A stretch of 64,000 nt of DNA from the NCBI GenBank assembly GCA_024698145.1, contig JAILRO010000047.1, positions 27,162 to 91,161 of the forward strand. The letters are read 5' to 3'. This stretch comes from Lachnospiraceae bacterium (GTDB lineage Bacteria > Bacillota > Clostridia > Lachnospirales > Lachnospiraceae). The notes under the pieces were generated by a model. That model did no database searches. It saw only the letters and a program-made list of their open reading frames with translations, and was not told the DNA's origin. Below, in pieces: positions 1 to 41,218 of the stretch (position 1 is its first letter; the number at the start of each line of letters is the position of its first letter). Made by a program: the position numbers and the translations under genes.

Positions 1-269
1 ATAAGGGCATCAATATGAGAAATTAATTCATCCGTCGAATACGAATCCTTATTCTCTAACCTCTTTCTAATCACATCAGAAAAAGATACCGCCTGCTGTT
101 GGTATAGTTCATCTATGCCCTCATCATTAATTGTGGCAAAAACCTGATATGCAACCATTATAAGCGTCAATGCCAATATCATAACAACCGTCATCACAAG
201 CACAACAACTATCATCGCCGCACCGCGGTTTCTACTCATATTAAGTTGTTGTTTCTTACAGGTATTCAT
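1..269 (-). CDS. Partial CDS running off the window edge; PilX-like/pilus-assembly-type protein with an N-terminal hydrophobic helix
   Basis: Own translation from ATG at 269 on the minus strand: MNTCKKQQLNMSRNRGAAMIVVVLVMTVVMILALTLIMVAYQVFATINDEGIDELYQQQAVSFSDVIRKRL...; no stop before position 1. RGAAMIVVVLV resembles PilX-type N-termini; lies just downstream of a prepilin-type gene. Confidence 0.6.
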   Translation of the reverse strand, partial: MNTCKKQQLNMSRNRGAAMIVVVLVMTVVMILALTLIMVAYQVFATINDEGIDELYQQQAVSFSDVIRKRLENKDSYSTDELISHIDAL

Positions 270-349: not shown

Positions 350-3300
350 TCAAGGTATTGATACTCTACTTGTTCCTCTTACAAACGGGTAACCTTCTTT
401 AGCATCATAGAAAGCTCTCTCTAAGAAATATTTCTCATTGCCTACGCCGTTTGTATAATCAATCGTAACACCGGCTGTCGTCTTGTATGTATCAAACAAA
501 GCCTTGGTAAGTTCTAATTCCTCATACACAAATCCATCTGTGCATCCCGCAGCAGAACCTTCAGCACACGCTCCTGCATACCATATACACACATTAAGAT
601 TAGTATATTTTGAAAGATCAACTGACGCATCAACATTTAATGTGACGTTTATCTCTTTCGCCTGGTTAACTGTAAGCTTAATATATTGGTCAGGTGTCAT
701 TCTTGTAAGAATCACTTCCTGATCAAAGCCATCTATAGGGGTTACAGGTGTTCCTGTTAAAGCCACACAGAAGCACTGCTCACATACTGGTTTGTAACCT
801 GCATTTGTTTTAAATGAAACCTTGCCACTAAAGGTCACATTATTTCCCGAAATGCCGGCAGAAGCGTTCTCTACTTTAACGTTACGCATTTCGTTAGGTA
901 CTGCCTGTGTATAACTTGGCATATAAACCTTCTTGGTTATCATCTCACTTACAAAATCCGCTTCTCCACCGGTTCCCTTAATTACAGCATATGCTTTAAG
1001 AGTTGATAATTTTCCTCCGGTTGTCTGGTTCCTTCCACGAAGCACGCTGTACGGAATCGTAATTGCATACTTGGTAGTCCTAGGATACGACGTTCCACCA
1101 TTAAGTTTGATATTCTCAATTGTACAACCTTCAAGAGTAACCACTATTTCGGCATTCTCATCATAATCTTCAGGATTATCAAGTCTTACAAACTGTCCCT
1201 CGTCTCCGAGAAGCAATATTGAAAGTTCCGGTTTTTTGAGACTTTCAGATACTTTAACCAATACAGGTTCGGTATAAGCAGTATCATCTGTCATATTCTT
1301 ATCTTTAACTCTGACAAGTGCAACATAATTGTGATTATCCCAATCATACGTCTTGTTACCTATCGGTCTGACAAGATAAGAATCTTTCATCTCTACAACA
1401 TCCGAAACAAATGGCGTCGCACCCTGAAGTGATGCTACCGTCGGTGTATCAGACTTTGAAACCTCATAAATCTTGACATCAACGTCACATACATTTGACT
1501 TGTCATAGAAATCTTTATCAATATTCCAGCTTATTACCTTAACATCACCATCCGAAACCTTAATAAATGATCCATCGTCAAACGCCTTAAGTCCGGATAT
1601 TGTATCTTCCAACTCCCTATAGAGTACATACTTGTCGTAATCATTGGTTTTGTCCGTCAATGTCTGATATCTCTTATCTGCAAGCGGTGTAACGTAATAG
1701 TATTTCACATCCGTTCCACTCTTATCAATAAGGACACCCTTCTCTCTTGCATCAACATAATTGTCCTTGTCAGTATCATAAGCAAGCGCCTTTGCCTCTT
1801 CCTCTGTGATTTCAAAATACTGACGTACAAATCCATTCTTGTCGGCATTGCTGTAGGCACACTTTGAATACCAAACCGCAAAATGGAAGTCATGATAGCC
1901 ACTTACATCATCAATAGTTTCCGTCACAAACTTCTCTGTTTTGTATCCTGTGTTAACATTACCGCTATCCATCTTAATATCGTCACTTAACAAAAGTGTT
2001 ACCTGCTGGTCCTTATCATCAAGAGCATAAATCTCATATCTGTAATACTGATCTATGTCTCCATGCGAGTTGTATCTTATTCTACCCTTAAATGTTAACT
2101 TATTATTACCATCAAGAGCAAAACAACCATCAGAAGTAACGTTATTAGAATCCTTATAGGTATCGCAATCCACAGCAAGATTAACTTTTGTATTACCCGA
2201 AAGATTAGTCTGTAATACAATATTGCTGTTACTTAACGAACCCGTTGCAGAATCATAGAAACCATCTGCAATAGCCTTATAAGTATATTTTGCCGAACCA
2301 CTGTTAACCTTACATGCATAAGGAAGTACATTACCCACCTTATCCGTGCTGTTAACATCTATCGTGTACTTATTATTTATTCTAATCCCAGCTCCGGTTC
2401 CTTCATAATCTTCACGATTAAGAAGTCGTGCATACCACAAAGGCTCTCTGCCCATACATACAAGTTCAATATGCGGTGTGTTAAGTTTAACCGAATGGAA
2501 ATAATATGTTGGCTTTGAAGCATCAACCGATACATCCGTTATAAATCCTGTACTACGTGTTTTGTGCTCTGCCCATTTACGGTTAGTTTCGACGTAATTA
2601 TATACATCGCCCTGACCTGAAGCAGCATACCAGCAGTCAATTCCAAACGATTCGTATTTCGTAAGATCTGCACCGCTTTGTGAGGAATAGTATCCTATCT
2701 CAACAGGTACGCTCTCTCCAACATTTACCGCATATTCATCCATTGCGATAGTTTCATGCCATGTAATATCGTTATTCTCCGCATCTTTGCCCTTAACCAC
2801 GCCATAGAGTTCAACTCTGAAAACCTGTGGAACATTAGGTGTTATATCCGTGTTGTTCCATTTATCAAAATACGTATAACTTAAAGTTCCACTGTATGTC
2901 GGTTTGTCACTGTCTAAATGACTTTCCTTCGCCTGTAATTCGTATGCCATATTCTTGGCTGTCGCATTCTTAGGTATATAAACCATCATGCTGTTAACAT
3001 CGGCCTCCAAACAGCCCTCTGCCTTTGCATAACAGTATATAATCTCACCCTCTTTGCCGAGAGCAATATCTGTAGCCGGCACCGCATTTTGCATAATCTT
3101 ATCTTCGTAAGTAGCATCATCGGTAAATACTATATTATCCTTTGTAAGTTTAACTGTCTTGGAAATGGTCGTTGTATTGTCCTTATAGATATACACACCC
3201 ACTTCAAAATCAGCGTTGTTAACAAAGTCTTTGAAATCATCCGGATTAAGAAGATGCAACATCCATTTATCAGAATAAGATACAATCTCAAACTTAGGCT

Positions 3301-6300
3301 GTGGAAGCTTCGGCTCTAATGCAATATAACTCTTAATGCTTTCAGTATCCATAATCTCGCTGTAATAGTCATCAGCATTTGCTTTCTTCGAAGCTCTTGC
3401 ATCCCTTACGCGAACAACCGCATAGTACTTATTACCGGACGTCATAACATAATCATCAGGCACATTGAATAGTATTGTGGTTCCATAAGCCTTAGTATTC
3501 TCTGTACGCACACGATTGTTGCTCTCATACTCACCAAGCTTATCTTTGTCAAATGTCTCACTAATTGGAAGTTCAACATACCTTATTTCAACATCAAACT
3601 CTGTTGCCGTAGGAACATCGCTACCATCCGGAACAACTTCCCAGGACACACTGTATTTGCCCGATGTTTTGCTCTTTGTAACATCGACGTTCTTGATCTT
3701 ATCCGGTGTTTCATCCTGCTCGGCAATTCTCTTATCAATATATTTAATAAAATCACTGTCAAGTTTGAAATAATCAAGATCATACTCATCTGCCACCGGT
3801 GTTCTTGAACTATCAAGCTTATCATCAAGGTTTGCACCATTGTGATGATTTACCGCTATTGTCTTATAAGACTCATATTTCTTAGCTCTATCAAGATAGA
3901 AATGATTGAGTAACTTATTACTGTAAGGAGTAGCATTCTTATCCTCGGAAAACTTGTGCATTACCGGATATTTGAATACCCCATCAACAGTACTTATGTA
4001 GAAATCATCACCAACTATCCACGCATTTTTCTTGTTAAGCTTTGTAACATCATATCCATCCGGTTCCTTGACAATTGCATACTTTCCATCATCATATGTA
4101 ACAGTTATCAATCTGCTCGACTTAATATGTTTGCTAATCTTATCAACCTTATCAATGTATTTCTTGGAACTAATCTTTTCAGGTGATACAGGCTCTGCAT
4201 TAGCTATAAATGCATCAACTAACGAAGCAACACCCTTGATGTCTGTTGACACATTATTATTAACTCTTGCACGGAAACCGTCCGAACCGATAAGACCTGC
4301 CAGGTTACTGTATTGGAACGAATACTCATCCATGTAGTAATTATCGCCATATACCCTGTAAGGCTCTTCATTAAGTTCATACGAATCAGTTTTATAGTAA
4401 GCTATAGCTCCGCCTCTAAATGTATAATTACCGGAAGATTCATCATATCCCTGCATACGAACACTGAAGCAGTTCTTAACTGCTGTATATCCGATTTTGG
4501 GTGCACCTGCAGCGTATGGATCTCTACCTGAAAGAATTCCTCCATTCTTACCTGTATAGTATTCGTTAGTTTTTGCTCCCTGTGCACTTATTATATTTGA
4601 AGAATAATTACGACATTTATCTATGTTGACAAATATACTGTTAACAGTCTGTTTAACCTGGTTGCCTTCATTAGCATAACATCCGATTGTACCAAGTATT
4701 CCGGCACTCTTTGAATGCGCATATACACTCGCATTGTGACCGTTAATACAGTCCTTGATATTAACAACATAGAGCTTCATTATCTCCGGAGCTGAAATCT
4801 CACCTACAATTCCTCCGACATCATTAGCTGTATCATTACCGTATCGGCTTACAATCTTATTAGTGTAACTGTCAAATCCAAGTGCCGGCATTCCGACAAC
4901 ACCCTGGTTAACACAATGATATACATCATTGGTCTGACCTGACTTAAGTTCTGTATAATGAGACACAATTCCTCCGGCAGTACCACTGAATCCACCACCG
5001 TAGTTATTGGTATAACCGGCCATTAATTTTCCGTAATTGTAGCAATATCCGACATTTCCACCGTTACCCTTAACACGGCATATCACACCACCAACATTGT
5101 TACCAAAATAATTAACAACAGTTCCCACGTTAACACATTTCTCGATTGTCCAACCCGGATTGGTTAAGTTGTTCTGTGTTCCGACAACGCCGCCTACATA
5201 ATAGAAATTATGATTGTAATTCTTGTTATGCACCTGTCCATGATCATTCATTACCGAGTCATCATCCGGTATAAATGATAGTTCCGTTCTTACATATGCA
5301 AAATTGATATTATGATTAAATTGTTTGCCATCAGAAGCATTCTCGCCCACAACACCGCCGGTTGCGATGTATTTTACCTTTGGAAGATAATTCTCAACAA
5401 CCCATCTTCCGCTTGCACAGTTCTTAATAGTACCCGTAGAGGCATTGTAACCCGCAATACCACCGATACAGCCGACACCTTTGTTCATCGTAAGAATGAA
5501 ATCATTATCGCTTATATCGTATTCACTCTTTGACAAAGCATTCTTGTAATTATCCTTATCATCAGGAATATATCCGCACAATTTCTTAACGTCAGCTTTG
5601 AACCGTCCTGTCTTATCATTGATAACCAGCTTGTTAAGTTTCTTCTGTGCTGCCATAACTTTGTCTGTGTCATCAAGTGATACATCTGACAAAGAATCCA
5701 TTATCTGTCCTGCAAGCTGCATATCATCTTTGTCATCTATTACAGCAAACGTATTATCCTTTTCATAGAAATCCTTATCTGTATATCCACTATTCTTAAC
5801 GGTACCCTTGTTAACTGCGGCAATACCGCCTGCCATACCGTTAACAACCTTGATACTACTCTGACGAACACGCTCTGATTTGTTATTGCTCAAACATGTT
5901 ATGTAACATTTATCCACTGTTGAACCAACATTGTTAATAGCGCAGATTCCACCAACATAAGAACACTTTGTAATTTTAGTATTCTCATCTGCACTTTCAA
6001 GGAAACTTCCTGTTCCTATAACATCAAATGTAGCTCCTACAATATAGCATGACTCTATCTTGCCGTTGTTCATGCCGTTACCGTTTCTTGCAACAATACC
6101 TCCCACTGACATATCGGCAAAACTTCTTACTTTCTTGGTTATATCACCACCAAAGTAACATTTTCTAACTTCGCCTAAGTTCTCACCGACAACGCCACCT
6201 ACCGTATTGGCCTGCCCTTTATCAACAAAATCAAATGTTACGGTAACATTCTTAACAACCGCTTTGTTGGTACCTACTGCACCACCGATAACAAGCTTTG

Positions 6301-9058
6301 TTTTATTGGAACTGTAATTAAGATACTTGCCGGCTCTTCCTTTGTTGACAACACCATCATTCTCTCCGACAAGGAAGCCGAAAGTTTCCATATCATTACC
6401 GGTTATCTTAACGCAATCATCATTGCCTACCGAATTCGATACTGCACACAAACAATCGTATAAAACTGCATCCTCATGATTAACTGCTGTTATCGAACCT
6501 GCAACCGACATATTCCCGGAAATCTTAGGAATTAAAGTTTCACCGTTATCTACAACACGTTCCAGACTGCATTTATCAACGTATCCATGATTCTCCGCAA
6601 CTATACCTGCGGATACACCGGCAGACGCTTTAGGACTACCATAAGAAGTACATGAAGCTATTCTACTGTACTTACAGTTGACACCAACGATTCCTCCGAC
6701 ATAATCTTCACCTTTCGTATCTCCGTAATTGACACAGTTAATAAGACAAAGATATGCATTTCCATCAGGAACGTTGTTGTCCCCGTCTTTGTCATGTCCG
6801 TTATATTCATCGGCAGCGGGAACATCCATATAAATATTACCCGCAATACCACCTGTAAATGTAGTGCCTTCTACTTTTGCTTTGTTAACAACCGAATAAG
6901 TATTATTACTGTCTCCTATTCCCGGATGAGTAGAAGCAGCATCATATTGTCGGTATACGTAACCAAACACACCACCAACACCATACGAATAGTAATCGAT
7001 GTTAGTCTTGTTATTGGTATCTGCTGTATCAGAGTACAACTGCTTTCTGAGAGTCTTATCATTTGCCGACGGAGCGTCTTTGTAATTATTATCATCACCC
7101 TCTACGCTTCCTTTGACATTACCTTCTACATACAGTTTGTCAAATGTAGCGTCCTCGCCAAGAAATACCGTGCCTGCAACCATGCCGACTCCGGATGCAT
7201 AGCGTTGGTTAACACCTGCACTTCCGGGACCAAGCTTATTCTCCTTTTCCTCGCCGCTGTCATCAAGATTACAGAAAACATCCGCCTCTATCGCACTATC
7301 TTTATCAAACGAAACCTCTGCAATTCCGCCTTCACTTCTACCACATAAGATTCCTGCCGCCTGAACAGCGTCCGAATATATCGATACATCCGGATTATTG
7401 CCTGTTATATTTTTGTAATTCTTTCCGGACAAAACTTTGCTTTGCGCCTTAACAAACGAGATTCCCTTAATCGAGCCCTTGTTAATACCAATCATACCAT
7501 TAACAAAGGATTGGTTAACCGGTGACGCATCATATTCTCCCAACGCATTGCGCACGTATCTAACACTACTGTCGTTGCCTATTACAAGATTACTGATTTT
7601 CTTTCCATTCGATTCAAGCGCACAATCCTTGCCAAGTGATGGAATCATCGGAAATCCTGTAATAGTTGTGTCAAGACTGTCATAGGCCATTCCTGCTGCA
7701 GGATTTGAATTAAGACTTGAATAAATGATTCCGTCTGCCCAATCAAGATTATCGATTATCTTATATGTGTGTACCAGACCATTAACATCACTATACTGTT
7801 CTGTATATCTTATATTGGATAAATGTCTTATTTTAGCAACTTCGTATGTATCAGCCGGCACACTGTCATCACTTGTTGCAAAAAGCGAATTTTCCACATT
7901 TGAATCAAGCGAACCTCCGGTCGCATACTCAACAACAGCATCTTTAGGTTCTACCGATACGTTGGCATATATATCCATAGGACTGACGCCAATAAGCCTT
8001 GTAATACTGTAGCTTACCTTATCAGTTCTTCCGTTAACGTCTATTTCATCCATCAATGCATACGACTGCGAAGTATTAACAGCATCAAGCGTCAATGCTA
8101 ATTCATTCACTTCTTCTCCATGTGCATCTGTTCCCGAATTATAAGACATAACAAATGCATATTTGCCGAGTTTGACACCATTTTCATCAAAAACATCTGT
8201 CTCTATACGCTTTGGAGTATTGACAGGAACATCACTAACCATGCTTCTGTCAACTGCAAAGGAACAAAGCTTATCTCCTGTTTTATTATGAAGTTCAATA
8301 TTAAAACTCGTATCTATGTCATTATTAACAGAAGTACTGTTCATCGTAAGATACAGTTTTTCTTCGTTGTGAAGCTGCAAACTCTTGACTTTTAACTCTT
8401 TCATGTCATTAAGTTTAACAACATTGACCTGATCGGAATTATAATATCCCACCGTATATTTCTCACGGTAGGCCGCCTGTCTGTGGGCATCATTTATAGT
8501 AAACATACCTCTTTCCACACTCTCCGCATCAGAGTATTGGAGCGAAGTTTCCCAGCCGCTGTAGAAAGCAGAATATACCTTCTTGGCAGTAATATCAAAC
8601 TCTACAACAATGGAACCATTTAACTGTTCCTTATCACTAATATATGTTTCGAGTATATCGTACAAAAAGTTTGAAGACGTTCCGTATGCGCCCTTCTTAA
8701 CAGTAAGATATCCATACTTATGCTCAATACCTTCGTTATCTATCTTGGTAGTAATCCCGTATGCTGTCTTGCTAAGACCAGACTCACCGGATTGAGCAAA
8801 ATGTCCTCCATAGGTATCCATTGACTTCTCAATCTGATTCATATACTCATCAAGAACACCTCTGCTTTCAGCAGCAGATAGTGCCGACTGTGCAGCCATA
8901 TATACGGTTCTTGCTTTTTCTTCACTGCTTATGTATTCATAATGCTCTATCCAACCGGTTATTCCCCAGATAGCTGCACTCATCATAATTCCAATAATAA
9001 CCAAAACCGCTATCATCTCAACAAGTGTAAAACCGGTATTTATCTTCTTACGATTCAT
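350..9058 (-). CDS. Giant (2902 aa) prepilin-type N-terminal cleavage/methylation protein with GLUG-like repeats and repeated C-terminal modules
   Basis: N-terminus MNRKKINTG|FTLVEMIAVLVIIGIMMSAAIWGI is a class III (type IV pilin) signal with Glu at +5; many GGI(V/A)GxN-type GLUG-like repeats in the middle; RBS-like GGGGTGG upstream of the ATG. Confidence 0.9.
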   Translation of the reverse strand: MNRKKINTGFTLVEMIAVLVIIGIMMSAAIWGITGWIEHYEYISSEEKARTVYMAAQSALSAAESRGVLDEYMNQIEKSMDTYGGHFAQSGESGLSKTAYGITTKIDNEGIEHKYGYLTVKKGAYGTSSNFLYDILETYISDKEQLNGSIVVEFDITAKKVYSAFYSGWETSLQYSDAESVERGMFTINDAHRQAAYREKYTVGYYNSDQVNVVKLNDMKELKVKSLQLHNEEKLYLTMNSTSVNNDIDTSFNIELHNKTGDKLCSFAVDRSMVSDVPVNTPKRIETDVFDENGVKLGKYAFVMSYNSGTDAHGEEVNELALTLDAVNTSQSYALMDEIDVNGRTDKVSYSITRLIGVSPMDIYANVSVEPKDAVVEYATGGSLDSNVENSLFATSDDSVPADTYEVAKIRHLSNIRYTEQYSDVNGLVHTYKIIDNLDWADGIIYSSLNSNPAAGMAYDSLDTTITGFPMIPSLGKDCALESNGKKISNLVIGNDSSVRYVRNALGEYDASPVNQSFVNGMIGINKGSIKGISFVKAQSKVLSGKNYKNITGNNPDVSIYSDAVQAAGILCGRSEGGIAEVSFDKDSAIEADVFCNLDDSGEEKENKLGPGSAGVNQRYASGVGMVAGTVFLGEDATFDKLYVEGNVKGSVEGDDNNYKDAPSANDKTLRKQLYSDTADTNNKTNIDYYSYGVGGVFGYVYRQYDAASTHPGIGDSNNTYSVVNKAKVEGTTFTGGIAGNIYMDVPAADEYNGHDKDGDNNVPDGNAYLCLINCVNYGDTKGEDYVGGIVGVNCKYSRIASCTSYGSPKASAGVSAGIVAENHGYVDKCSLERVVDNGETLIPKISGNMSVAGSITAVNHEDAVLYDCLCAVSNSVGNDDCVKITGNDMETFGFLVGENDGVVNKGRAGKYLNYSSNKTKLVIGGAVGTNKAVVKNVTVTFDFVDKGQANTVGGVVGENLGEVRKCYFGGDITKKVRSFADMSVGGIVARNGNGMNNGKIESCYIVGATFDVIGTGSFLESADENTKITKCSYVGGICAINNVGSTVDKCYITCLSNNKSERVRQSSIKVVNGMAGGIAAVNKGTVKNSGYTDKDFYEKDNTFAVIDDKDDMQLAGQIMDSLSDVSLDDTDKVMAAQKKLNKLVINDKTGRFKADVKKLCGYIPDDKDNYKNALSKSEYDISDNDFILTMNKGVGCIGGIAGYNASTGTIKNCASGRWVVENYLPKVKYIATGGVVGENASDGKQFNHNINFAYVRTELSFIPDDDSVMNDHGQVHNKNYNHNFYYVGGVVGTQNNLTNPGWTIEKCVNVGTVVNYFGNNVGGVICRVKGNGGNVGYCYNYGKLMAGYTNNYGGGFSGTAGGIVSHYTELKSGQTNDVYHCVNQGVVGMPALGFDSYTNKIVSRYGNDTANDVGGIVGEISAPEIMKLYVVNIKDCINGHNASVYAHSKSAGILGTIGCYANEGNQVKQTVNSIFVNIDKCRNYSSNIISAQGAKTNEYYTGKNGGILSGRDPYAAGAPKIGYTAVKNCFSVRMQGYDESSGNYTFRGGAIAYYKTDSYELNEEPYRVYGDNYYMDEYSFQYSNLAGLIGSDGFRARVNNNVSTDIKGVASLVDAFIANAEPVSPEKISSKKYIDKVDKISKHIKSSRLITVTYDDGKYAIVKEPDGYDVTKLNKKNAWIVGDDFYISTVDGVFKYPVMHKFSEDKNATPYSNKLLNHFYLDRAKKYESYKTIAVNHHNGANLDDKLDSSRTPVADEYDLDYFKLDSDFIKYIDKRIAEQDETPDKIKNVDVTKSKTSGKYSVSWEVVPDGSDVPTATEFDVEIRYVELPISETFDKDKLGEYESNNRVRTENTKAYGTTILFNVPDDYVMTSGNKYYAVVRVRDARASKKANADDYYSEIMDTESIKSYIALEPKLPQPKFEIVSYSDKWMLHLLNPDDFKDFVNNADFEVGVYIYKDNTTTISKTVKLTKDNIVFTDDATYEDKIMQNAVPATDIALGKEGEIIYCYAKAEGCLEADVNSMMVYIPKNATAKNMAYELQAKESHLDSDKPTYSGTLSYTYFDKWNNTDITPNVPQVFRVELYGVVKGKDAENNDITWHETIAMDEYAVNVGESVPVEIGYYSSQSGADLTKYESFGIDCWYAASGQGDVYNYVETNRKWAEHKTRSTGFITDVSVDASKPTYYFHSVKLNTPHIELVCMGREPLWYARLLNREDYEGTGAGIRINNKYTIDVNSTDKVGNVLPYACKVNSGSAKYTYKAIADGFYDSATGSLSNSNIVLQTNLSGNTKVNLAVDCDTYKDSNNVTSDGCFALDGNNKLTFKGRIRYNSHGDIDQYYRYEIYALDDKDQQVTLLLSDDIKMDSGNVNTGYKTEKFVTETIDDVSGYHDFHFAVWYSKCAYSNADKNGFVRQYFEITEEEAKALAYDTDKDNYVDAREKGVLIDKSGTDVKYYYVTPLADKRYQTLTDKTNDYDKYVLYRELEDTISGLKAFDDGSFIKVSDGDVKVISWNIDKDFYDKSNVCDVDVKIYEVSKSDTPTVASLQGATPFVSDVVEMKDSYLVRPIGNKTYDWDNHNYVALVRVKDKNMTDDTAYTEPVLVKVSESLKKPELSILLLGDEGQFVRLDNPEDYDENAEIVVTLEGCTIENIKLNGGTSYPRTTKYAITIPYSVLRGRNQTTGGKLSTLKAYAVIKGTGGEADFVSEMITKKVYMPSYTQAVPNEMRNVKVENASAGISGNNVTFSGKVSFKTNAGYKPVCEQCFCVALTGTPVTPIDGFDQEVILTRMTPDQYIKLTVNQAKEINVTLNVDASVDLSKYTNLNVCIWYAGACAEGSAAGCTDGFVYEELELTKALFDTYKTTAGVTIDYTNGVGNEKYFLERAFYDAKEGYPFVRGTSRVSIP

Positions 9059-9153
9059 AATATTACCACCCCAAATACTTTAAATTCGCAAAAATAACAT
9101 AATCATCTGTATTTTATATCGGTTAATTAACTATAAAAATATATATGCAAAAA

Positions 9154-9252: not shown

Positions 9253-10617
9253 TCATTTTCTAAGTAAAGAACGTTTCATTAATTCGATAAACTCGTTATT
9301 ATCCTTAGTTCTTACGAACAGTTTGAGAATCTCTTCAATTCGTTCTTCCGCCCTGTTGCCGTTAAATTCCCTAGACATTGCATTGACTATTTCCTTCTCG
9401 ACAGGAGTAAGTAAAAGGTCATCACGTCTTGTACCCGATTTTGCTATATCTATTGCCGGGAATATTCTCCTTTCGGATAGTCTTCTATCAAGAACGAGTT
9501 CCATGTTACCGGTACCCTTAAACTCCTCAAATACAACATCATCCATCTTTGAACCTGTTTCAACAAGAGCAGTTGCAAGCACCGTAAGAGATCCGCCCTC
9601 TCTCATATTTCGTGCAGCACCAAAGAACTTCTTAGGCATGTGCAGCGCAGCGGGATCCAAACCACCAGTAAGTGTACGACCACTCGGTGGAACAGTAAGG
9701 TTATATGCTCTTGCAAGTCTTGTAATAGAATCAAGAAGAATAACAACATCCTCCTTGTGCTCGACAAGACGTTTTGCTCTCTCTAATACCATTTCCGCAA
9801 CACGTTTGTGATGTTCCGGAAGTTCATCAAAGGTTGAATATATTACTTCTACATTAGGACCTTCTATAGTTTCTCTTATGTCAGTAACCTCCTCCGGTCT
9901 TTCATCGATAAGCAAAACTATAAGATGCATGTCTCTGTATTTTCTGCTAATACTTACTGCAATCTGTTTGAGCAAAGTAGTCTTACCTGCCTTTGGTGGA
10001 GCAACAATCATACCACGTTGTCCTTTACCAATCGGTGCAAGCAAGTCCATTATTCTCATAGATACTGTTTTGGAATGCTCATTTTCAAGTTTTATTCTTT
10101 CATCCGGGAAAATTGGTGTAAGGTCTTCAAAGTTCTTTCTGCTCATAGCCTCCTCAACAGAATACCCGTTAATTGTTTTTATATATAGGAGAGCCGCAAA
10201 CTTCTCACGTTCTGTCTTAACCTTCTGATTACCAATAATAATATCACCGGTTTTTAAGTTAAACTTCTTAATCTGTGCAGGCGAAACGTATATATCGTTG
10301 TCACCGGGAAGATAATTCTCACATCTGATAAAGCCAAATCCATCAGGCATAACTTCCAATATACCATTGGCTTCTTTGCCACTATCAAGTTCAGAAACCG
10401 ATTGTTTGTCTGCTGTATTATCAGATTGTGCATTGTCCGATTGTGTTTTCTCGATTGTACGTGATTCTTCCTGCTCTTTTCTTCCGGCCTTCTGATGTCC
10501 CTTTACGGCATTTAACAAGTCAACAAGCTCGTTCTTCTTCATGCCTGAAATGCCTTTTATACCGAGCTCTTTCGCCGAATTCTTAAGCTCTGTAAGTGTC
10601 ATTTCTTCATAACTCAT
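9253..10617 (-). CDS. rho: Transcription termination factor Rho
   Basis: Rho N-terminal LTELKNSAKELGIKGISGMKKNELVDLL, RNA-binding GFGFIR, Walker A APPKAGKTTLL, SGRTLTGGLD. Confidence 0.97.
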   Translation of the reverse strand: MSYEEMTLTELKNSAKELGIKGISGMKKNELVDLLNAVKGHQKAGRKEQEESRTIEKTQSDNAQSDNTADKQSVSELDSGKEANGILEVMPDGFGFIRCENYLPGDNDIYVSPAQIKKFNLKTGDIIIGNQKVKTEREKFAALLYIKTINGYSVEEAMSRKNFEDLTPIFPDERIKLENEHSKTVSMRIMDLLAPIGKGQRGMIVAPPKAGKTTLLKQIAVSISRKYRDMHLIVLLIDERPEEVTDIRETIEGPNVEVIYSTFDELPEHHKRVAEMVLERAKRLVEHKEDVVILLDSITRLARAYNLTVPPSGRTLTGGLDPAALHMPKKFFGAARNMREGGSLTVLATALVETGSKMDDVVFEEFKGTGNMELVLDRRLSERRIFPAIDIAKSGTRRDDLLLTPVEKEIVNAMSREFNGNRAEERIEEILKLFVRTKDNNEFIELMKRSLLRK

Positions 10618-10730
10618 ACACAGAGTCCCCTTTCTATTCTATGTTTTGATATATATAGTGAAAAATTAGAAAATAACTGATGGATTCGAAAATAAATGAT
10701 ACTCATAATCTTTGTTATGAATAAAAGAAA

Positions 10731-10763
10731 AGACAGCATATGCACTCCTTACAAATGCTGTCT
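10731..10763 (-). terminator. Intrinsic terminator of rpsO
   Basis: AGACAGCAT/ATGCTGTCT arms followed on the minus strand by TTTCTTTT. Confidence 0.75.
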
Positions 10764-10771
10764 ATCTTTTT

Positions 10772-11038
10772 CTAGTGTCTTAAGCCAAGACTCTCAACAA
10801 GAGTTCTATATCTGTTGATATCAACCTTCTTTAAGTATGCAAGCATGTTCCTTCTCTGACCTACTAACTTAAGAAGACCTCTCTTTGAATGATGATCCTT
10901 TGGATGTGACTTAAAATGCTCCTGAAGGTCAAGGATTCTTGCTGTCAAAAGCGCAATCTGAACCTCCGGTGAACCTGTGTCGTTAGCACCTCTACCGTAC
11001 TTCTCAACGATCTCTTTTTTCTGCTCTGCTGTTACCAT
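10772..11038 (-). CDS. rpsO: 30S ribosomal protein S15
   Basis: 88 aa; [48 protein letters not shown] is characteristic. Confidence 0.98.
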
Positions 11039-11044
11039 AGCATT

Positions 11045-11110
11045 ACCTCCTATAATATAAATCTAATCGCCAACTACCCGGACTAAGGTCGGAGTTTCCT
11101 ATGTCTGAGT
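11045..11110 (-). promoter_or_regulatory. Candidate structured rpsO 5' leader (possible S15 autoregulatory element)
   Basis: Minus strand GGAAACTCCGACCTTAGTCCGGGTAGTTGGCGATTAG can fold (CCGAC/GTCCGG with a bulge) directly upstream of the S15 RBS; S15 leaders are commonly autoregulatory. Confidence 0.35.
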
Positions 11111-11237
11111 AATGGTTAATACTTTGGTATAATAACATAGCACCTATAATTTGTAAACATTTTTTTGTATCATTGCGCAAAAATTGATTATATGCTATCA
11201 TTTATTGTCACAAACAGTATTACAAGGAGATAAATTC

Positions 11238-12338
11238 ATGGCAGGTTCAACATTCGGAACAATTTTTCGTGTTACAACATGGGGAGAGTCACATGGAAAA
11301 GCTTTGGGTGTCGTTATAGACGGCTGTCCCGCGGGATTAGAGCTTTCAGAAAGCGATATAACGCCATATATGAATCGTAGGAAACCCGGGCAATCAAGAT
11401 TTGCCACACCTCGAAAGGAAGACGATTCTGTCGAGATTCTTTCAGGCGTATTTGAGGGCAAAACAACAGGAACTCCTATATCGATGATTGTTTACAATAC
11501 ATCACAGAAGTCTCACGATTACAGTGAGATTGCAACTTACTATAGACCCGGACACGCAGATTTCACCTTTGATGAAAAATACGGTTTCAGGGATTACAGA
11601 GGTGGCGGTCGTTCATCAGGAAGAGAAACTGCTGCAAGAGTTGCCGCAGGTGCTGTTGCTTGCAAGATTCTGAAACAACTTAATATAACCGTATCGGCTT
11701 ACACTGCTTCTATCGGTGATATTAGTATTGACTATGACAAATTTGACGAAGACGAAATATTCAACAATAGTCTATATATGCCTGACAAAGAGGCTGCTGC
11801 ACTTGCAAGTGAATATCTTCAGAACGTTTCAAAAGATGGTGATTCCGCAGGTGGAATTATAGAATGCGTTGTAAATGGTACTCCGGCTGGACTGGGGGAT
11901 CCGGTATTTGACAAGCTTGATGCAAATCTTGCAAAAGCAATCACATCAATCGGTGCAGTTAAAGGCTTTGAAGTTGGAGATGGTTTCAAAGTCGCCCACT
12001 CAAACGCTTCTGCTAACAACGATGCGTTTGTCTTAAGCGATACCGGAAAGATTGTCAAATCAACCAATCATGCAGGCGGAATACTTGGCGGAATAAGCGA
12101 CGGTGATACCATTATACTAAGAGCAGGTTTTAAGCCAACCCCTTCAATTACAAAGGAACAACAGACAGTCAACAAAGATAATGAAGAAATCAATATATCC
12201 GTAAAAGGAAGACATGATCCGATTATCGTACCAAGAGCTGTTGTAGTTGTTGAAGCTATGACCGCCATCACCGTGTTAGATTCACTTCTCATGAATATGA
12301 CATCTCGACTTGATAACATCATAAAGTTTTACAAGTAA
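11238..12338 (+). CDS. aroC: Chorismate synthase
   Basis: [33 protein letters not shown]...[15 protein letters not shown]; start moved from 11184 to ATG 11238, preceded by AAGGAGA. Confidence 0.97.
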
Positions 12339-12341
12339 TAC

Positions 12342-12380
12342 AAAATAACTGCTACCGTTATATTGGGTAGCAGTTATTTT
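12342..12380. terminator. Bidirectional terminator shared by aroC and the convergent cell-wall-binding gene
   Basis: AAAATAACTGCTACC...GGTAGCAGTTATTTT perfect arms with A-run and T-run flanks. Confidence 0.85.
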
Positions 12381-13321
12381 TGTATAAACAATATGTCATA
12401 ATAATATACATTATCAATCATATAAGAACCAAGTCCTACACAGTTAATATCCTCTCTGTTCAACACACCTATGAAATTATTATCAAGCTTGATATGTCCC
12501 GTCAACATATCAATACTATAATCCGGTTGGCCTCCATACGAAAACTCATAACCCTTCTCGCATTTTATTCCACAATCCTGAATCAATCTTTTGACATCAC
12601 CATCGTCTGCAAAACCATTAACCAAAGATGACGCCCTAAGGACTGCGCATGCTGATACTTTGGTATCTAGGGATATTTCTGAAAGTCCATGCTCTTTCCT
12701 GTAATCATTAATATAGACAAATACCGGATAAAGCATTGTAGCATTCTCATCAATACTTCCATCTGAATTGAAGATATATGTAGTATCATCAATTGTCATG
12801 ATAGTATCATGAACTCTCGCACCATTCTCATCGAAATAATACCTGTATCCATTGATGGTTTCAAATCCTATTACTACTCTTCCCTTTTCACCACCGTAGA
12901 ACCAGTCATCACCGTTTTTGTACCAGCCGACTACATACTCTGCATTCGTATTAAAATAATACTTAACACCTTCATAATCTACGAGGCCGGTCTTAATTCT
13001 TCCGTCATCTTCCGTAATGAAAAAAACATCTTCTGTGTCAATTACACCTATCTGTATTACACCATTCTCGTCAGCGTAATAATATGCATCTTTGTCTTCT
13101 ACATAAAACTTTCCGGTCTTAAGATATCCATCTTCGTCAAAATAGTACAAACATTCATCAATATCAGTAAAACCAATCGAATATTCGCCATCCTCATTGG
13201 TATAACGTCGTCCATTCTCGTCCTCGTCCCAATACGCACGAACCGAATTATTAATACTGAAGAATATTCCTATGACTGCAATGAATACAACCGAAAAAAT
13301 AATCAATACTCTTTTATTCAT
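12374..13321 (-). CDS. Secreted cell-wall/glucan-binding repeat protein with a C-terminal CAP/SCP-like domain
   Basis: Signal/anchor N-terminus; serial YYFDENG/YYFNTN-type binding repeats; C-terminal INDYRKEHGLSEISLDTKVSACAVLRASSL resembles the CAP domain. Confidence 0.7.
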   Translation of the reverse strand: MNKRVLIIFSVVFIAVIGIFFSINNSVRAYWDEDENGRRYTNEDGEYSIGFTDIDECLYYFDEDGYLKTGKFYVEDKDAYYYADENGVIQIGVIDTEDVFFITEDDGRIKTGLVDYEGVKYYFNTNAEYVVGWYKNGDDWFYGGEKGRVVIGFETINGYRYYFDENGARVHDTIMTIDDTTYIFNSDGSIDENATMLYPVFVYINDYRKEHGLSEISLDTKVSACAVLRASSLVNGFADDGDVKRLIQDCGIKCEKGYEFSYGGQPDYSIDMLTGHIKLDNNFIGVLNREDINCVGLGSYMIDNVYYYDILFIQK

Positions 13322-13329
13322 AATCCTAC

Positions 13330-14220
13330 CTATATGTTAGCCCTAGGATGCGTCTTGTTGTAAACTTCCTTAAGCTTTGTATTAGCATTAGCCTTAGCAT
13401 AAATCTGTGTCGTAGAAATATCAGAATGTCCAAGCATTTCCTGAACAGACTTAAGATCAGCTCCATTGTTAACAAGATGCATTGCAAATGAATGTCTTAT
13501 AGTATGAGGAGTTATGTCTTTCTTAATTCCTGCTTTTCCCGAATAATACTTAATAATCTTCCAAAAACCTTGTCTTGTCATAGGCGCACCCTGACAATTT
13601 GTAAACAAATACTCCTGCTCCTGGGTGCATAATGCACCTCTGGCATCCTTAATGTATTTCTCCAATGCGAGCTTGGTTTCCTTTGTAAAAGGTATAACTC
13701 TGTCCTTGTTACCGTCTTTGCATTCAATATAATCTAACGACAAATTGACATCTGTAATTTTGAGCGTGATAAGCTCTGAAACTCTTATACCTGTTGCATA
13801 AAGCAATTCTAACATTGCCTTATCTCTAATATCTTTGGGTGTTGTTCCTCCCGGTTGTTCAAGCAAAAGACTTACTTCATCCATGGTAAGAATAACAGGA
13901 AGTTTCTTCTCGATTTTGGGCGGTTTTAATACCTCACTCGGATCTTCAGTAATAACACCCTGCTTAGCCAAAAAAATAAAAAAGGCCTTGATAGATGCTA
14001 TGTTTCTTGACACAGTTGCTGATGACATACCCTGCTTCTCAATCTGCAAAACATACGAATTCAAATTAGTTCCTGTAATTTGATTAACGTCATCTATACC
14101 GATGGCTGATAAGTAATTATACAGCTTTTTCAAGTCTCTTCGGTATGATGCAACGGTATTCGCACTTGCTCGTTTCACATTCGTTAAGTAGTCAACGAAC
14201 TGGTCAATCTTTTGTAACAT
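13330..14220 (-). CDS. xerD: Tyrosine recombinase XerD
   Basis: ELLYATGIRVSELITL, HTIRHSFAMHLVNNGADLKSVQEMLGHSDISTTQIY active-site motifs. Confidence 0.93.
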   Translation of the reverse strand: MLQKIDQFVDYLTNVKRASANTVASYRRDLKKLYNYLSAIGIDDVNQITGTNLNSYVLQIEKQGMSSATVSRNIASIKAFFIFLAKQGVITEDPSEVLKPPKIEKKLPVILTMDEVSLLLEQPGGTTPKDIRDKAMLELLYATGIRVSELITLKITDVNLSLDYIECKDGNKDRVIPFTKETKLALEKYIKDARGALCTQEQEYLFTNCQGAPMTRQGFWKIIKYYSGKAGIKKDITPHTIRHSFAMHLVNNGADLKSVQEMLGHSDISTTQIYAKANANTKLKEVYNKTHPRANI

Positions 14221-14357
14221 TTCAAGTCCCCTTAAATAAAAAATAACATACTCACATTATAAATGCTAATTTACATAAAATCAAACATTATTTTTTCACA
14301 AATATCTTGTATTTACTGTATTTTCAACGTTTTATACAATTAGTGGTGTTAACATAA

Positions 14358-14936
14358 TCAACTCACACTACATATTGAAAAAAATAATTTAAAAAAATTA
14401 TGTAAATATAGTTCCAATCCTACTCCTAAAGCCAATAAAACAATAATTACAAATGTTTTAAATAATAAAAACAACTTGTTAACATTATTACAATTACATG
14501 TATTCTCCCGCACAAAAAATACTCCAAAAAGATATATACACCAAAAATACGATAATAAAAATGGCAAAAACAAAACAAAATTGATACCTATTCCCTTCAA
14601 GAAATATAAAACAAAAAAATGAGAGTATAGGAACCCATAAGCCGTTCCAAAAAAGCCACAAAATAATATTGCCGAGAAATAATACGATATTACACAGGCT
14701 ATAAATACAAATAAGCATATTTGAACCAAGCGTTCTTTTACTATATACAAAATATAATTATGGGAAATATTTGACATAAGACTATTATCAAAATAAGCGA
14801 AAAAATCGTTGTGACAAACAACATATATCAGGACACCGAAAAGCATGCCGACAAACAATGGTAAAAAAGTAACTAATTTTATATTGTTATCATCTTTTTG
14901 CAAATAAATCACCCCTGATAACAATATATGAGTCAT
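14358..14936 (-). CDS. Polytopic membrane protein, candidate divergent SpoIIM (stage II sporulation protein M)
   Basis: 192 aa, strongly hydrophobic, several TM segments, FCGFFGTAYGFLYSHF resembles the SpoIIM/DUF95 core; lies directly upstream of xerD as spoIIM does near xerD in Bacillus. Confidence 0.5.
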   Translation of the reverse strand: MTHILLSGVIYLQKDDNNIKLVTFLPLFVGMLFGVLIYVVCHNDFFAYFDNSLMSNISHNYILYIVKERLVQICLFVFIACVISYYFSAILFCGFFGTAYGFLYSHFFVLYFLKGIGINFVLFLPFLLSYFWCIYLFGVFFVRENTCNCNNVNKLFLLFKTFVIIVLLALGVGLELYLHNFFKLFFSICSVS

Positions 14937-14967
14937 GAATAAATAATATATCCTGATAAAAAAGAAA

Positions 14968-14992
14968 GAGTCCGAAATATAATTTCGGACTC
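14968..14992 (-). terminator. Intrinsic terminator of rny
   Basis: GAGTCCGAAAT/ATTTCGGACTC arms; minus-strand tail TTTCTTTTTTATC. Confidence 0.85.
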
Positions 14993-15012
14993 AGAACTCG
15001 CATCGATCAAGT

Positions 15013-16563
15013 CTATTTTGCGTAATCCGTTACACGTGATTCTCTGATAATATTAACCTTAATCTGACCCGGATACTTAAGCTCATCTTCAATTCGCTTA
15101 GAAATATCTCTAGCCATGAGAACCATGTCGGCATCACTCACCTGCTCAGGAACTACCATAATACGAATCTCTCTACCTGCCTGAATTGCAAAAGATTTAT
15201 CAACGCCCTTAAAGTCGTTGGCAATGTCCTCTAACTGTTTTAATCGTGTTGTATAAGTCTCTAATGTCTCACGTCTTGCACCCGGTCTTGCAGCTGAAAT
15301 AGCATCTGCAGCCTGTACAATACATGCAATAAGTGACTCAGGTTCCACATCTCCATGATGTGCCTCAACAGCATTAATGATAAGCGGTGTCTCTTTATAT
15401 TTTCTACAAAGATCTACACCAATCTGTACATGAGATCCTTCCATCTCGTGGTCAACAGATTTACCAATGTCGTGAAGAAGTCCTGCTCGTTTGGCCAAAC
15501 GGACATCCTCTCCAACTTCTGCTGCAAGTAAACCACACAACAAAGATACTTCCATAGAATGCTTTAACGCATTCTGTCCGTAACTTGTTCTGTACTTCAT
15601 CTTACCAAGTAAGCGCACAAGCTCCGGATGAATTCCCTGAACACCAACTTCAAATGTGGCATTCTCTCCTTCTTCCTTCATAGTCTGCTCGACTTCTTTC
15701 TGCGCCTTCTCGACCATTTCTTCAATTCTTGCCGGATGAATTCTTCCATCAAGAATTAATTTTTCAAGAGCAATTCTCGCAACTTCACGTCTTACCGTAT
15801 CAAAACTTGATAAGATAACCGCTTCCGGAGTATCATCAATAATAAGATCTACTCCTGTCATTGTTTCAAGAGTACGAATGTTTCTACCCTCTCTACCAAT
15901 AATACGTCCCTTCATCTCGTCATTAGGTAACTGTACCAATGAGATTGTGGACTCTGCGACATGATCAACTGCACATTTCTGTATAGCTGTCACTACATAC
16001 TCTTTAGCCTTCTTTCCGGCTTCTTCCTTGGCTCTGTTCTCCATCTCTTTGATAAGAACAGCTGTTTCATGTTTTACATCTTCTTCAACAGTTTTTAATA
16101 AATATTCTTTTGCTTGTTCAGAGGTTAATCCAGAGATTCTCTCCAGTTCCTGTAGTTTCTTTGATTCAAGCTCTTCAACTTTTGCTTTCTGCTTTTCCAA
16201 AGATGATTCTCTAGATGCAAGGCTTGCTTCTTTCTTCTCTATCGCTTCTGTCTTACGATCAAGATTCTCCTCACGGGAAAGTAATCTCTTTTCCATTCGC
16301 TGAACCTCGTTGCGACGATCTTTAATTTCTTTATCAAGATCATTCTTGGTCTTGATTGAATCTTCCTTAGCTTCTAGGAGAATCTCCTTCTTCTTGGCTT
16401 CAGCATTTTTAACGGCTTCATCTATAATCTCTCTCGATCTGTCCATTGCATCACGGTTCTTCTTCTCAACAACATTCTTACGATATGCGTTGCAAATAAC
16501 CCATGTGACAACAACAGCTACGATTAAAATAATAGCAAAAGCAATCAAATAGCTTGGTTCCAC
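15013..16563 (-). CDS. rny: Ribonuclease Y
   Basis: N-terminal TM, long coiled coil, KH ([34 protein letters not shown]) and HD ([12 protein letters not shown]) domains. Confidence 0.97.
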
Positions 16564-16683
16564 AGGAGCACCTCCTTATTTAATTATAGTGTACTTTACA
16601 TAAGCACACTAATAAAGTGTATCTTTTTTTGTACATAATGTCAAGTAAAAGAATAATATTATTGGCATTTTATCAAATTTTCA

Positions 16684-17709
16684 CTATTCCTGTTCAGCAA
16701 CTTCATCCTTTTTGATGAGTCCGGCTGCCTCACGAACCTTAACTTCTATTTCTTTGGTAATTTCCGGATTATCTTCAAGATATACTTTCGTATTCTCTCT
16801 ACCCTGTCCTATCTTCTCTCCGTTATATGAGAACCACGCACCGGATTTGTTGATAATATCCATCTTAACAGCAAGATCAAGAATATCTCCAACCTTAGAT
16901 ATACCCTTACCAAACATAATATCAAACTCTGCCTCTCTAAAAGGTGGCGCAACCTTATTCTTAACAATCTTAACTCTTGTTCTGTTACCAATAACTTCAC
17001 CGTTCTGCTTCAACGTCTCGATTCTTCTAACATCAAGTCTAACAGAAGAATAGAACTTAAGCGCACGACCACCTGTAGTTGTCTCAGGGTTACCAAACAT
17101 TACACCAACCTTCTCACGAAGCTGATTGATAAATATTACAACACAATTAGATCTGCTTATAACAGCAGTAAGTTTCCTAAGTGCCTGTGACATAAGTCTT
17201 GCCTGAAGCCCTACATGAGAATCTCCCATCTCGCCATCTATCTCGGCCTTAGGAACAAGAGCTGCTACCGAATCGACAATTATAACGTCAACCGCACCGG
17301 AACGAACCATTGTCTCTGTAATCTCTAACGCCTGCTCTCCGTTATCAGGCTGCGAAATATATAAATTATTAATATCAACACCTATATTGCCGGCATATAC
17401 AGGATCAAGTGCATGCTCTGCATCGATAAATCCTGCGATACCACCCTGCTTCTGAACTTCTGCAACTATATGAAGTGCAACTGTTGTCTTACCACTCGAC
17501 TCCGGACCATAAACTTCTATAATTCTTCCCTTAGGAACTCCGCCTATTCCAAGTGCAAGATCAAGACTTAAAGAACCTGTAGGAATTGCTTCAACATTCA
17601 TGCTTGCTGCTGAATCACCAAGCTTCATAACCGTACCTTTACCAAACTGTTTCTCAATATTAGCAAGTGCTGCATCAAGTGCTCTCATCTTATCTTCATT
17701 ACCAGCCAT
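16684..17709 (-). CDS. recA: Recombinase RecA
   Basis: [43 protein letters not shown]; start set to ATG 17709 ([11 protein letters not shown]) with GGAGGT 7-8 nt upstream rather than the ORF-track start 17730. Confidence 0.98.
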
Positions 17710-26895: not shown

Positions 26896-27081
26896 ATGGC
26901 AAAGTGTGCAGTATGCGATAAGGCAGCTCATTTCGGAATCAAGGTGAGTCATTCTCATAGAAGATCTAACAAGATGTGGAAGTCAAACATTAAGAAGGTT
27001 AAAGCTAACGTTAATGGTACTCCTAAGAGAATCTACGTTTGTACTTCATGTTTACGTTCCGGCAAGATTGAAAGAGCTTAA
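26896..27081 (+). CDS. rpmB: 50S ribosomal protein L28
   Basis: MAKCAVCDKAAHFGIKVSHSHRRSNKMWKSNIKKV; start corrected to ATG 26896 after AAGGAGG. Confidence 0.96.
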   Translation: MAKCAVCDKAAHFGIKVSHSHRRSNKMWKSNIKKVKANVNGTPKRIYVCTSCLRSGKIERA

Positions 27082-27107
27082 TTACTAGGTTAATGATACA
27101 CGGAATT

Positions 27108-27138
27108 AATTGGCACATATTTATGTGCCAATTTTTTT
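27108..27138 (+). terminator. Intrinsic terminator of rpmB
   Basis: AATTGGCACAT/ATGTGCCAATT followed by T-run. Confidence 0.85.
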
Positions 27139-27144
27139 GCGCAT

Positions 27145-27282
27145 TTAACACTTACAAAACAAAAGGTACGCTATAATTAAAGAAACCAACAGTACTAAAA
27201 AGTTCCAAAAACCTTTCAATATAAAATCTGCAATCATCCCTATACTAAACCAAAAAAAGGCAAAACCCCATACTCTCTTCAT
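27145..27282 (-). CDS. Small hydrophobic membrane protein (about 45 aa), downstream of gerW
   Basis: MKRVWGFAFFWFSIGMIADFILKGFWNFLVLLVSLIIAYLLFCKC; internal ATG at 27282 has AGGTG upstream. ORF-track start 27357 would overlap gerW by 14 nt. Confidence 0.55.
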   Translation of the reverse strand: MKRVWGFAFFWFSIGMIADFILKGFWNFLVLLVSLIIAYLLFCKC

Positions 27283-27343
27283 TACACACCTAAAAAAAAA
27301 CAATGCTATAAAAAAGTATATTCGGGTCTTGCCAAAAAAGTTC

Positions 27344-27742
27344 TTAATTATTTTCAAGAATCTCGTCTACTGCATTATCAATCTCTTCCGAATTAAGATC
27401 CTCACCATCTTTTTTCTTAAATCTGTCCATTAAATCAGGTACCATGTCAATAAGTTTTGTTATCGTATCCTGGTTCTTAACATTAACAAGTCTGATCTGA
27501 TCTCCTCTTATAACCAATACAGCGCTCGCAGACATCTTACCGCCCATACCGCCGGCTCCGTTATTCTTATGCTCTCCTGTAAATGCTCCGGCAGCAACAC
27601 CAAAGGAAACATCAACAAGCGGAACAAGAATCGTATCTCCCAGATGCTGTGGTTCTCCGACAACCGTTTTGGTTGTTAAAAATTTATCCATACCCTGAAA
27701 TAAAGAACTAACCGTCGTGTTTAAATCATTTGCCATTTTCAT
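27344..27742 (-). CDS. gerW: GerW family sporulation protein (YtfJ-like)
   Basis: TVVGEPQHLGDTILVPLVDVSFGVAAGAF...GGMGGKMSASAVLVI; 132 aa. Confidence 0.92.
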   Translation of the reverse strand: MKMANDLNTTVSSLFQGMDKFLTTKTVVGEPQHLGDTILVPLVDVSFGVAAGAFTGEHKNNGAGGMGGKMSASAVLVIRGDQIRLVNVKNQDTITKLIDMVPDLMDRFKKKDGEDLNSEEIDNAVDEILENN

Positions 27743-40846: not shown

Positions 40847-40876
40847 AAGACATCTTCCTTCATTACTTAATAAAAA

Positions 40877-41218
40877 TGGAGCTGGGGGGAATCGAACCCC
40901 CGTCCGAAAACTCTTCCATCATGGCATCTCCCATTACAGTCGATTTACAGACATTCCCTCAACCAATTGCCAACCGACAGGCTATCAGTCTTGGTAGCTT
41001 CATAATTCTTTTGATGTGTCAAAGCTTTCACAACAAAGTTCCCCGCTGTTTTGATGCCTTATCCTAAGCCACGAGCTAACTTAGGTAAGACAGCTGCCAT
41101 TAGGCAGCGTACGCTAACTTATTGTCTGCGTTTATATTTAATTCCGAGTTTTTAGATGGTCCCGGACCATCAATGGCTTCCATGATTTCTAAATCCCCGT
41201 CGAAACCAGTACAACCCC
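40877..41218 (-). ncRNA. ssrA: Transfer-messenger RNA (tmRNA)
   Basis: 5' GGGGUUGUACUGGUUUCGACGGGGAUU; 3' GGACGGGGGUUCGAUUCCCCCCAGCUCCA; 7-bp acceptor stem GGGGUUG/CAGCUCC; tag ORF GCA GAC AAT AAG TTA GCG TAC GCT GCC TAA = ADNKLAYAA; CCA not encoded. Confidence 0.96.

Follow-up and report, generated by a model that had tools for sequence, protein, structure and literature searches.

The window, the whole 64,000-nucleotide stretch that we analysed (C45:27162-91161), comes from a Lachnospiraceae genome of 2.9 Mb in 71 contigs and carries a single uninterrupted frame of 2,902 codons on the minus strand (Table 1). The predicted product has a computed mass of 319 kDa and a pI of 4.95. The frame opens with an ATG at 9058, placed 7 nt behind a ribosome-binding site (GGGGTGG, ~9066-9072), which is a good start context. 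The closest relative found, a member of another genus in the same family, has a collinear orthologue of 2,835 aa, which rules out an assembly artefact confined to the present genome.

Table 1. Features of the giant prepilin gene and its surroundings (positions in the window, unless given on contig C45)
Feature	Position	Strand	Basis or remark
Giant modular prepilin, 2,902 aa	350..9058	minus	Single frame, leader and orthologues; stop codon 350-352
Class III leader peptide (predicted), residues 1-9 (MNRKKINTG)	9032..9058	minus	PF07963 and TIGR02532 above cut-off
Pilin module (predicted), residues 10-215, helix and beta-sheet head	8414..9031	minus	AlphaFold; PilE1 match
Beta-sandwich (predicted, Ig-like in shape), residues 216-330	8069..8413	minus	Strands 224-325, pLDDT mostly 62-84
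Conserved connector with SN...RHLxNxR signature, residues 331-430	7769..8068	minus	Invariant residues
GLUG-type beta-solenoid (predicted), ~residues 470-1600	4259..7651	minus	19 Gly-Gly core motifs (regular expression)
C-terminal all-beta module array (predicted), residues 1785-2902	353..3706	minus	All-beta, low-confidence model; fastest diverging part
Tripled module (~125 aa), copy 1, residues 2052-2185	2504..2905	minus	Alignment against shuffles
Tripled module, copy 2, residues 2319-2440	1739..2104	minus	Alignment against shuffles
Tripled module, copy 3, residues 2739-2880	419..844	minus	Alignment against shuffles
K-like prepilin, no Glu5 (NRG/AAMIVVVLVM), at most 174 aa	1..269, on to C45:26936 (26936-27460)	minus	ATG at 269, GGGAGG site
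Prepilin, 130 aa, GMTMVEILVAF	C45:26534-26926	same as giant	Contig reading
Prepilin, 280 aa, GVTMVELIITF	C45:25695-26537	same as giant	Contig reading
Signalling block: hybrid kinase with Hpt domain, two more kinases, receiver-GGDEF protein	C45:17397-25249	same as giant	
Response regulator	C45:16574-17359	same as giant	
Presumed rho, upstream neighbour	9253..10617	minus	Translation; context only
tmRNA gene	40874-41218	minus	Rfam RF00023; ordinary

An earlier note on this DNA had read the frame as a 2902-aa protein with a complete class III prepilin signal, and our analysis bears this out. The leader, MNRKKINTG/FTLVEMIAVLVIIGIMMSAA (with its downstream residues, MNRKKINTG/FTLVEMIAVLVIIG), is short and runs into a hydrophobic helix, with G at -1, F at +1 and E at +5. 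It exceeds the curated cut-offs of both Pfam N_methyl (PF07963, 24.4 bits against 21.2) and TIGR02532 (24.0 bits against 16.3). Furthermore, G-1 (G9), T+2 (T11) and E+5 (E14) are invariant in 19 homologous giants whose mean column identity is 28%, so the signal is better than chance, and cleavage by PilD is predicted after G9. Prepilin-like motifs taken alone are common by chance (PMC3244431), and one could imagine such an N-terminus arising by coincidence on an ordinary secreted repeat protein. We discarded this reading, to which we attach a negligible probability, on the strength of the curated models, the residues invariant in 19 homologues, the pilin-like fold predicted for the chain and the operon in which the gene stands.

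The left flank, read from the same contig, shows what this operon contains. Downstream (3') of the giant and on the same strand lie, in this order, a K-like prepilin, two further prepilins, a signalling block, the major pilin and then the assembly genes. A second pilus-like ORF at 1..269 had been taken in the earlier note as the possible edge of an accessory-pilin locus. This proved correct: the ORF has its own start codon and ribosome-binding site, its product extends beyond the window, and it is the first of three more minor pilins that, with the major pilin, are encoded directly to the left. The assembly block comprises the major pilin (166 aa), a 156-aa protein, PilD, PilC, a PilM-like protein, a GspM/PilO-like protein and PilB, and Pfam and NCBIfam models confirm PilB, PilC, PilD, the GspM/PilO-like and PilM-like proteins and the pilins beside the giant. 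The leftward extension that had been advised for pil genes thus found PilB, PilC and PilD adjoining the giant, with a PilT-like ATPase elsewhere in the genome; a genome devoid of prepilin peptidase or pilus ATPase would have spoken against the reading in the note, and here PilD and PilB are encoded in the locus itself.

The minor pilins of the cassette are adjacent and one of them lacks Glu5, as in an HIJK-type set. Against models of the H, I, J and K pilins they gave sub-cut-off matches only (GspH, XpsI and GspK, the last matched weakly by the K-like pilin), and the labels K-, I- and J-like are used here for gene order and Glu5 pattern, with no homology above cut-off.

The minor-pilin genes are separated from the major pilin by a phosphorelay block (C45:16574-25249; L004:575-9250). 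The PilB of the giant locus has an MshEN domain and an NCBIfam c-di-GMP motif, both above cut-off, and on this basis we infer a plausible link from the phosphorelay through c-di-GMP to pilus extension. Four T2SSE-family matches were found in the genome, including the PilB of the locus, a second PilB on contig C67 and one on contig C17. The PilB on C67 belongs to a second type IV pilus (T4P) locus (G000:C67, L178:4808-19001) that also encodes a PilT-like ATPase, PilC, a small pilin, PilM-/PilO-like proteins and a 982-aa frame, and contains no giant of this family; the PilT-like ATPase is thus encoded outside the giant locus, next to the second PilB.

The earlier note had left a choice between a tip-located giant adhesin and one anchored in a secretion pseudopilus. 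At the giant locus we saw neither a secretin nor a type II substrate context, and its gene content is T4P-like; the secretion pseudopilus was rejected on these grounds, while the idea of a pilin-anchored adhesin holds. By its gene neighbourhood, we assign the giant to a type IVa-like pilus locus. On its other side, the gene at 9253..10617 is presumably rho, a name that rests on its translation and on general knowledge of Rho, and does not belong to the pilus system; the genes preceding giants in other genomes differ from it. No Rfam riboswitch match was found near the giant locus, and a promoter and terminator scan of the rho-giant gap gave nothing beyond shuffle level.

Structure prediction of the chain was another step that had been proposed. 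An AlphaFold model of residues 1-1150, for which 12 sequences were supplied, shows a pilin module, a beta-sandwich and a solenoid (mean pLDDT 64, pTM 0.59). At moderate confidence, the pilin module shows the long N-terminal helix (residues 12-65 and 69-83) packed on a beta-sheet head (strands 103-207) that is typical of the pilin fold. The N-terminal profile of the giant matched S. sanguinis PilE1 (8pfb; E 4.6e-11) in an alignment that covers the helix and continues past it; this was the best of its matches to solved structures, all of which were confined to the pilin end. The beta-sandwich that follows is alignable across relatives. The connector behind it is poorly modelled by AlphaFold, and its residues R411, H412, L413, N415 and R417 are invariant in 17 full-length giants.

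The predicted solenoid starts at ~470 and reaches at least 1090, close to where the modelled part stops (pLDDT mostly 70-94, with many blocks at 85-94), and the Gly-Gly motifs run on to ~residue 1,550. Taking each turn as roughly 25 residues and 0.48 nm, we estimate a solenoid length of ~20 nm. On the window giant, PF07581 (Glug) scores 14.9 bits, below its gathering score of 20.5, whereas 7 of 17 giants match Glug with E <= 0.01 and relatives reach E 6.6e-8, so that the window giant behaves as a GLUG-repeat protein despite its low score; we take IPR011493 to be the GLUG entry.

For the C-terminal array the model is unreliable (mean pLDDT 36, two input sequences). A BLAST search of the whole giant found no internal repeats at E <= 1. 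Targeted alignment resolved three copies of one module (pairwise z 5.3-7.8, 0/300 shuffles), and for the FN3-like pair and the X modules the repeat signal was unconvincing (z at most 2.3). Foldseek searches of the PDB with residues 1-1150 returned 0 matches at E <= 0.001. Given this lack of a significant structural match and the unreliable C-terminal model, a ligand-binding fold was not identified. The giant does carry a non-T4P-specific module behind an N-terminal pilin module, which makes it a modular pilin in the sense of PMC8179133, and precedent suggests that its extra modules may serve pilus function directly. Besides the N-terminal helix, a sequence scan found no second strongly hydrophobic or membrane segment in the giant, and a motif search found no LPXTG. 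A sortase-anchored or C-terminally membrane-anchored adhesin was rejected, as the protein has neither an LPXTG-type motif nor a C-terminal membrane segment.

The GLUG solenoid resembles part of the M26 IgA1 proteases, and the giant might accordingly be imagined as a tip-mounted enzyme, for example a peptidase or a glycan-active protein, rather than a passive adhesin. IgA1 protease chains are among the best, non-significant Foldseek ranks (probability up to 0.99, 11-14% identity), a hint only, and one relative matches Peptidase_M26_N. The survey of modular pilins also mentions an IPR012902-IPR011493 pilin architecture, interpreted there as M26 (PMC8179133), so that GLUG pilins may already be in its dataset. 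On the other hand, a motif search found HExxH in none of the 19 giants, which led us to reject an M26 IgA1 protease identity, and no catalytic Pfam domain was found in the giants scanned. We therefore regard a tip enzyme as very improbable.

The giant has many relatives. A plain protein search found them in 19 of 299 family genomes, the present one included, and nearly all are very long open frames; most relatives come from draft genomes or MAGs. A profile (A1) covering the first 450 residues, searched against 397 family genomes, matched 51 loci over at least 150 model positions at E < 1e-20 (44 of them at least 1,000 aa; median 2,857, maximum 7,664 as an open frame), whereas ordinary pilins of 140-300 aa match A1 over only about the first 45-145 positions. 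These counts refer to samples of genomes, and E-values are per genome. The longest giant read directly has 7,662 aa and starts GFTITELAVVLGVL; its frame lies on one long contig (C19, joined L167+L166) of G179, a genome with 7% contamination. Other outsize prepilins have 4,537 aa (G026, L168:3933-17546) and 4,429 aa (G052, L169:1166-14455). In a class-wide draw of 391 genomes, giants were also found in two other families, f5 and f45, and within one f45 genus two genomes encode short members of the same pilin family (498-511 aa) and two others long ones (2,449-2,780 aa). By these sequence comparisons, the giant is part of a family-wide class and not a singular protein.

Gene order, read at the loci of 18 relatives, is largely conserved. 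At most loci a K-like pilin without Glu5, an I-like and a J-like pilin come after the giant (1,542-3,735 aa) on the same strand, and behind them, with variation, stand the major pilin, PilD, PilC, PilM, PilO and PilB. Small pilins stand upstream of the giant in L042 and L043, and PilB and PilT in L036 and L045; in L041 and L047 minor pilins were seen and assembly genes were not seen within the 20 kb read. In L034, L037 and L040 the reading frames of the giant and of the K-like pilin overlap. At one locus (L046, G172) the giant is a 226-aa remnant with a TAA stop beside K-, I- and J-like genes, possibly a case in which the arm was lost in nature.

Growth in size recurs within the cassette, since its I-like and J-like pilins are enlarged at other loci: the closest relative (G002) has an I-like pilin of 579 aa and a J-like pilin of 629 aa (L031:13065-16702), and in the small-form genomes the J-like pilin reaches 1,637 aa in L170 (L170:2944-7857) and at least 624 aa in L172, where the stretch ends within the frame. 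It looks as if the arm could move between cassette subunits. The association with the machine is regular as well. A PilM gene was found in 19 of 150 genomes, 15 of which have a giant, and a close PilM (E < 1e-40) was accompanied by a giant in 13 of 13; G019, G033, G046 and G149 have a distant PilM and no giant, and partial stretches of their loci show only small pilins and a different T4P subtype.

Some genomes encode more than one giant. An extra one stands directly upstream of the cassette giant in Lachnospiraceae bacterium AC2029 (L088:3720-9953 and 9962-17275) and at L102 (3662-9910 and 9977-16012), and at L044 and L049 the stretch ends within a long frame that precedes the cassette giant. 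The extra giant of AC2029 has a major-pilin-like N-terminus followed by DUF285 repeats. In G184, two giants of 3,220 aa (L038:3950-13612) and 3,165 aa (L038:14053 into L039:3550) lie in tandem; their identity is 81-87% across the first 1,300 residues, falls to 51-65% in the middle and rises again to 67-82% near the end, a pattern of kept ends and diversified middle that suggests duplication and diversification of tips.

Base and arm differ in their divergence. Identity to the closest relative is 52% in the pilin module, 42-46% in most of the solenoid and ~33% or undetectable at the C-terminus, and the C-terminal region was found in one other genome among 200, namely that relative. List_Bact repeats occur in the giant of L173, DUF285 in the extra giant of AC2029. 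The distal modules diverge fastest and are swapped between genera, and a conserved base with a fast outer part is what would be expected of a displayed ligand-binding arm. The N-terminal module, in turn, co-diverges with PilC across 14 loci (Mantel r 0.79, 0/5,000 permutations), a correlation of which shared genome ancestry could give part.

These observations bear on whether the giant enters a filament at all. It could instead be a cell-surface adhesin whose pilin helix, processed or unprocessed, is a membrane anchor only: the N-terminal helix is its sole strongly hydrophobic segment, and its great size and length would suit a wall-spanning surface protein. However, features that serve assembly (the pilin sheet region and Glu5) are conserved, the gene has a recurrent place in a minor-pilin cassette, and its base co-diverges with PilC. 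We consider a pure surface anchor unlikely, and a free membrane-anchored form of the giant possible.

Modular pilins are already known. PilB and PilC of S. sanguinis are adhesins with a module grafted behind the pilin part and have been placed at the tip by modelling (PMC8179133, PMC9934059, PMC10628169); these one-module pilins attach to host ligands, and the cap is the subunit that lacks Glu5 (PMC8179133, PMC9934059, PMC10628169, PMC10191384). With PilB (vWA) and PilC (lectin) the giant shares the class III signal, the N-terminal pilin module with a functional module behind it, and the context of a monoderm type IVa pilus with a partner minor pilin without Glu5 at the tip (PMC8179133, PMC10628169). 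In contrast, PilB is of ~50 kDa, compared with 319 kDa for the giant, and both streptococcal proteins carry one globular module where the giant has a solenoid and a module array. Adhesion is experimentally established for PilB and PilC, whereas for the giant we infer it, like the tip location, from architecture, divergence pattern and the known modular pilins.

Other systems resemble the giant in part. As in the HIJK minor pilins (GspH-K / PilHIJK), four prepilins are encoded together and one lacks Glu5, but in the giant cassette one of the four has either been replaced by the giant or grown into it. PilY1/PilC of diderm type IVa pili are likewise large modular tip effectors with variable modules (PMC8179133, PMC10191384); they are non-pilins with a beta-propeller, whereas the giant has its own pilin module and no propeller was found in it. 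GLUG-repeat proteins and, as a hint only, M26 IgA1 proteases share the GLUG-type solenoid, which in the giant comes without HExxH or a sortase signal and is attached to a pilin module.

ComZ of Thermus thermophilus is a large minor pilin whose beta-solenoid has been proposed to bind DNA (PMC8179133). By analogy, the giant could be a pilus-borne DNA receptor acting in transformation and not in adhesion. Yet the solenoid of ComZ is inserted into the pilin sheet, while that of the giant comes after the pilin module and sandwich and is far longer, and all giants (19/19) are acidic, with a pI of 4.5-5.4. A DNA receptor of this kind is, in our estimation, quite improbable.

Considering all the above results, we think it probable that the protein is a modular minor pilin of giant size that belongs to a type IVa-like pilus in a monoderm Lachnospiraceae, held in the tip complex under a K-like cap and acting as a retractable adhesive arm. 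PilD would cut the chain after G9, and PilB and PilC would build the pilin module (residues 10 to ~215) into a filament together with the three partner minor pilins. As T4P assembly starts at the tip and so bulky a C-terminal part is unlikely to be accommodated within the shaft, the giant would most likely sit in the tip complex, just under the K-like cap without Glu5. The K-like prepilin is non-acidic at +5 in the cassettes read and Glu5 of the giant is invariant, and by the Glu5 rule the neighbouring K-like pilin is the more likely apical cap. Some I-like partners have Ser at +5 (L037, L039, L041 and L048), so this rule does not point to a single cap in every genome. The solenoid rod and the lineage-specific beta modules would then bind a surface, fibre, mucus or cell ligand, and extension followed by PilT-driven retraction would turn the giant, possibly under c-di-GMP control, into a retractable grappling arm. 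Export of a 319-kDa chain across the cell wall would be demanding, for which passage as an elongated rod is plausible.

For the family as a whole, we lean towards one Lachnospiraceae T4P subtype, with outliers elsewhere in the class, in which a giant pilin of ~1,500-7,700 residues is a fixed tip component and, in monoderms, the functional counterpart of PilY1, incorporated into a pilin. It would provide every pilus with an adhesive arm of tens of nm, with outer modules that are swapped, duplicated and diversified and a base that co-evolves with the machine.

The most extreme multi-domain modular pilin named in the InterPro survey has 860 aa, and that survey needs a recognised extra domain (PMC8179133); it would miss the window giant, whose Glug match falls short of the threshold. 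In a published pilin finder, the upper limit is set at < 350 aa (PMC3244431). In the open-access literature, we found no paper on giant pilins or on a Lachnospiraceae cassette with a giant. What is new here is the scale, the base-module family, the recurrent cassette and the regular association with one T4P subtype, and the size range assumed for pilins is too small by an order of magnitude.

Lachnospiraceae are common in gut and rumen. To our knowledge, their means of attachment to mucus, to fibre and to one another are poorly understood. The giants may provide a concrete candidate family for this role, with a recognisable base module, a conserved cassette and a representative, Lachnospiraceae bacterium AC2029, that is not labelled a metagenome assembly. 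They also make testable the way in which a pilus machine would export and assemble a subunit of 300-800 kDa.
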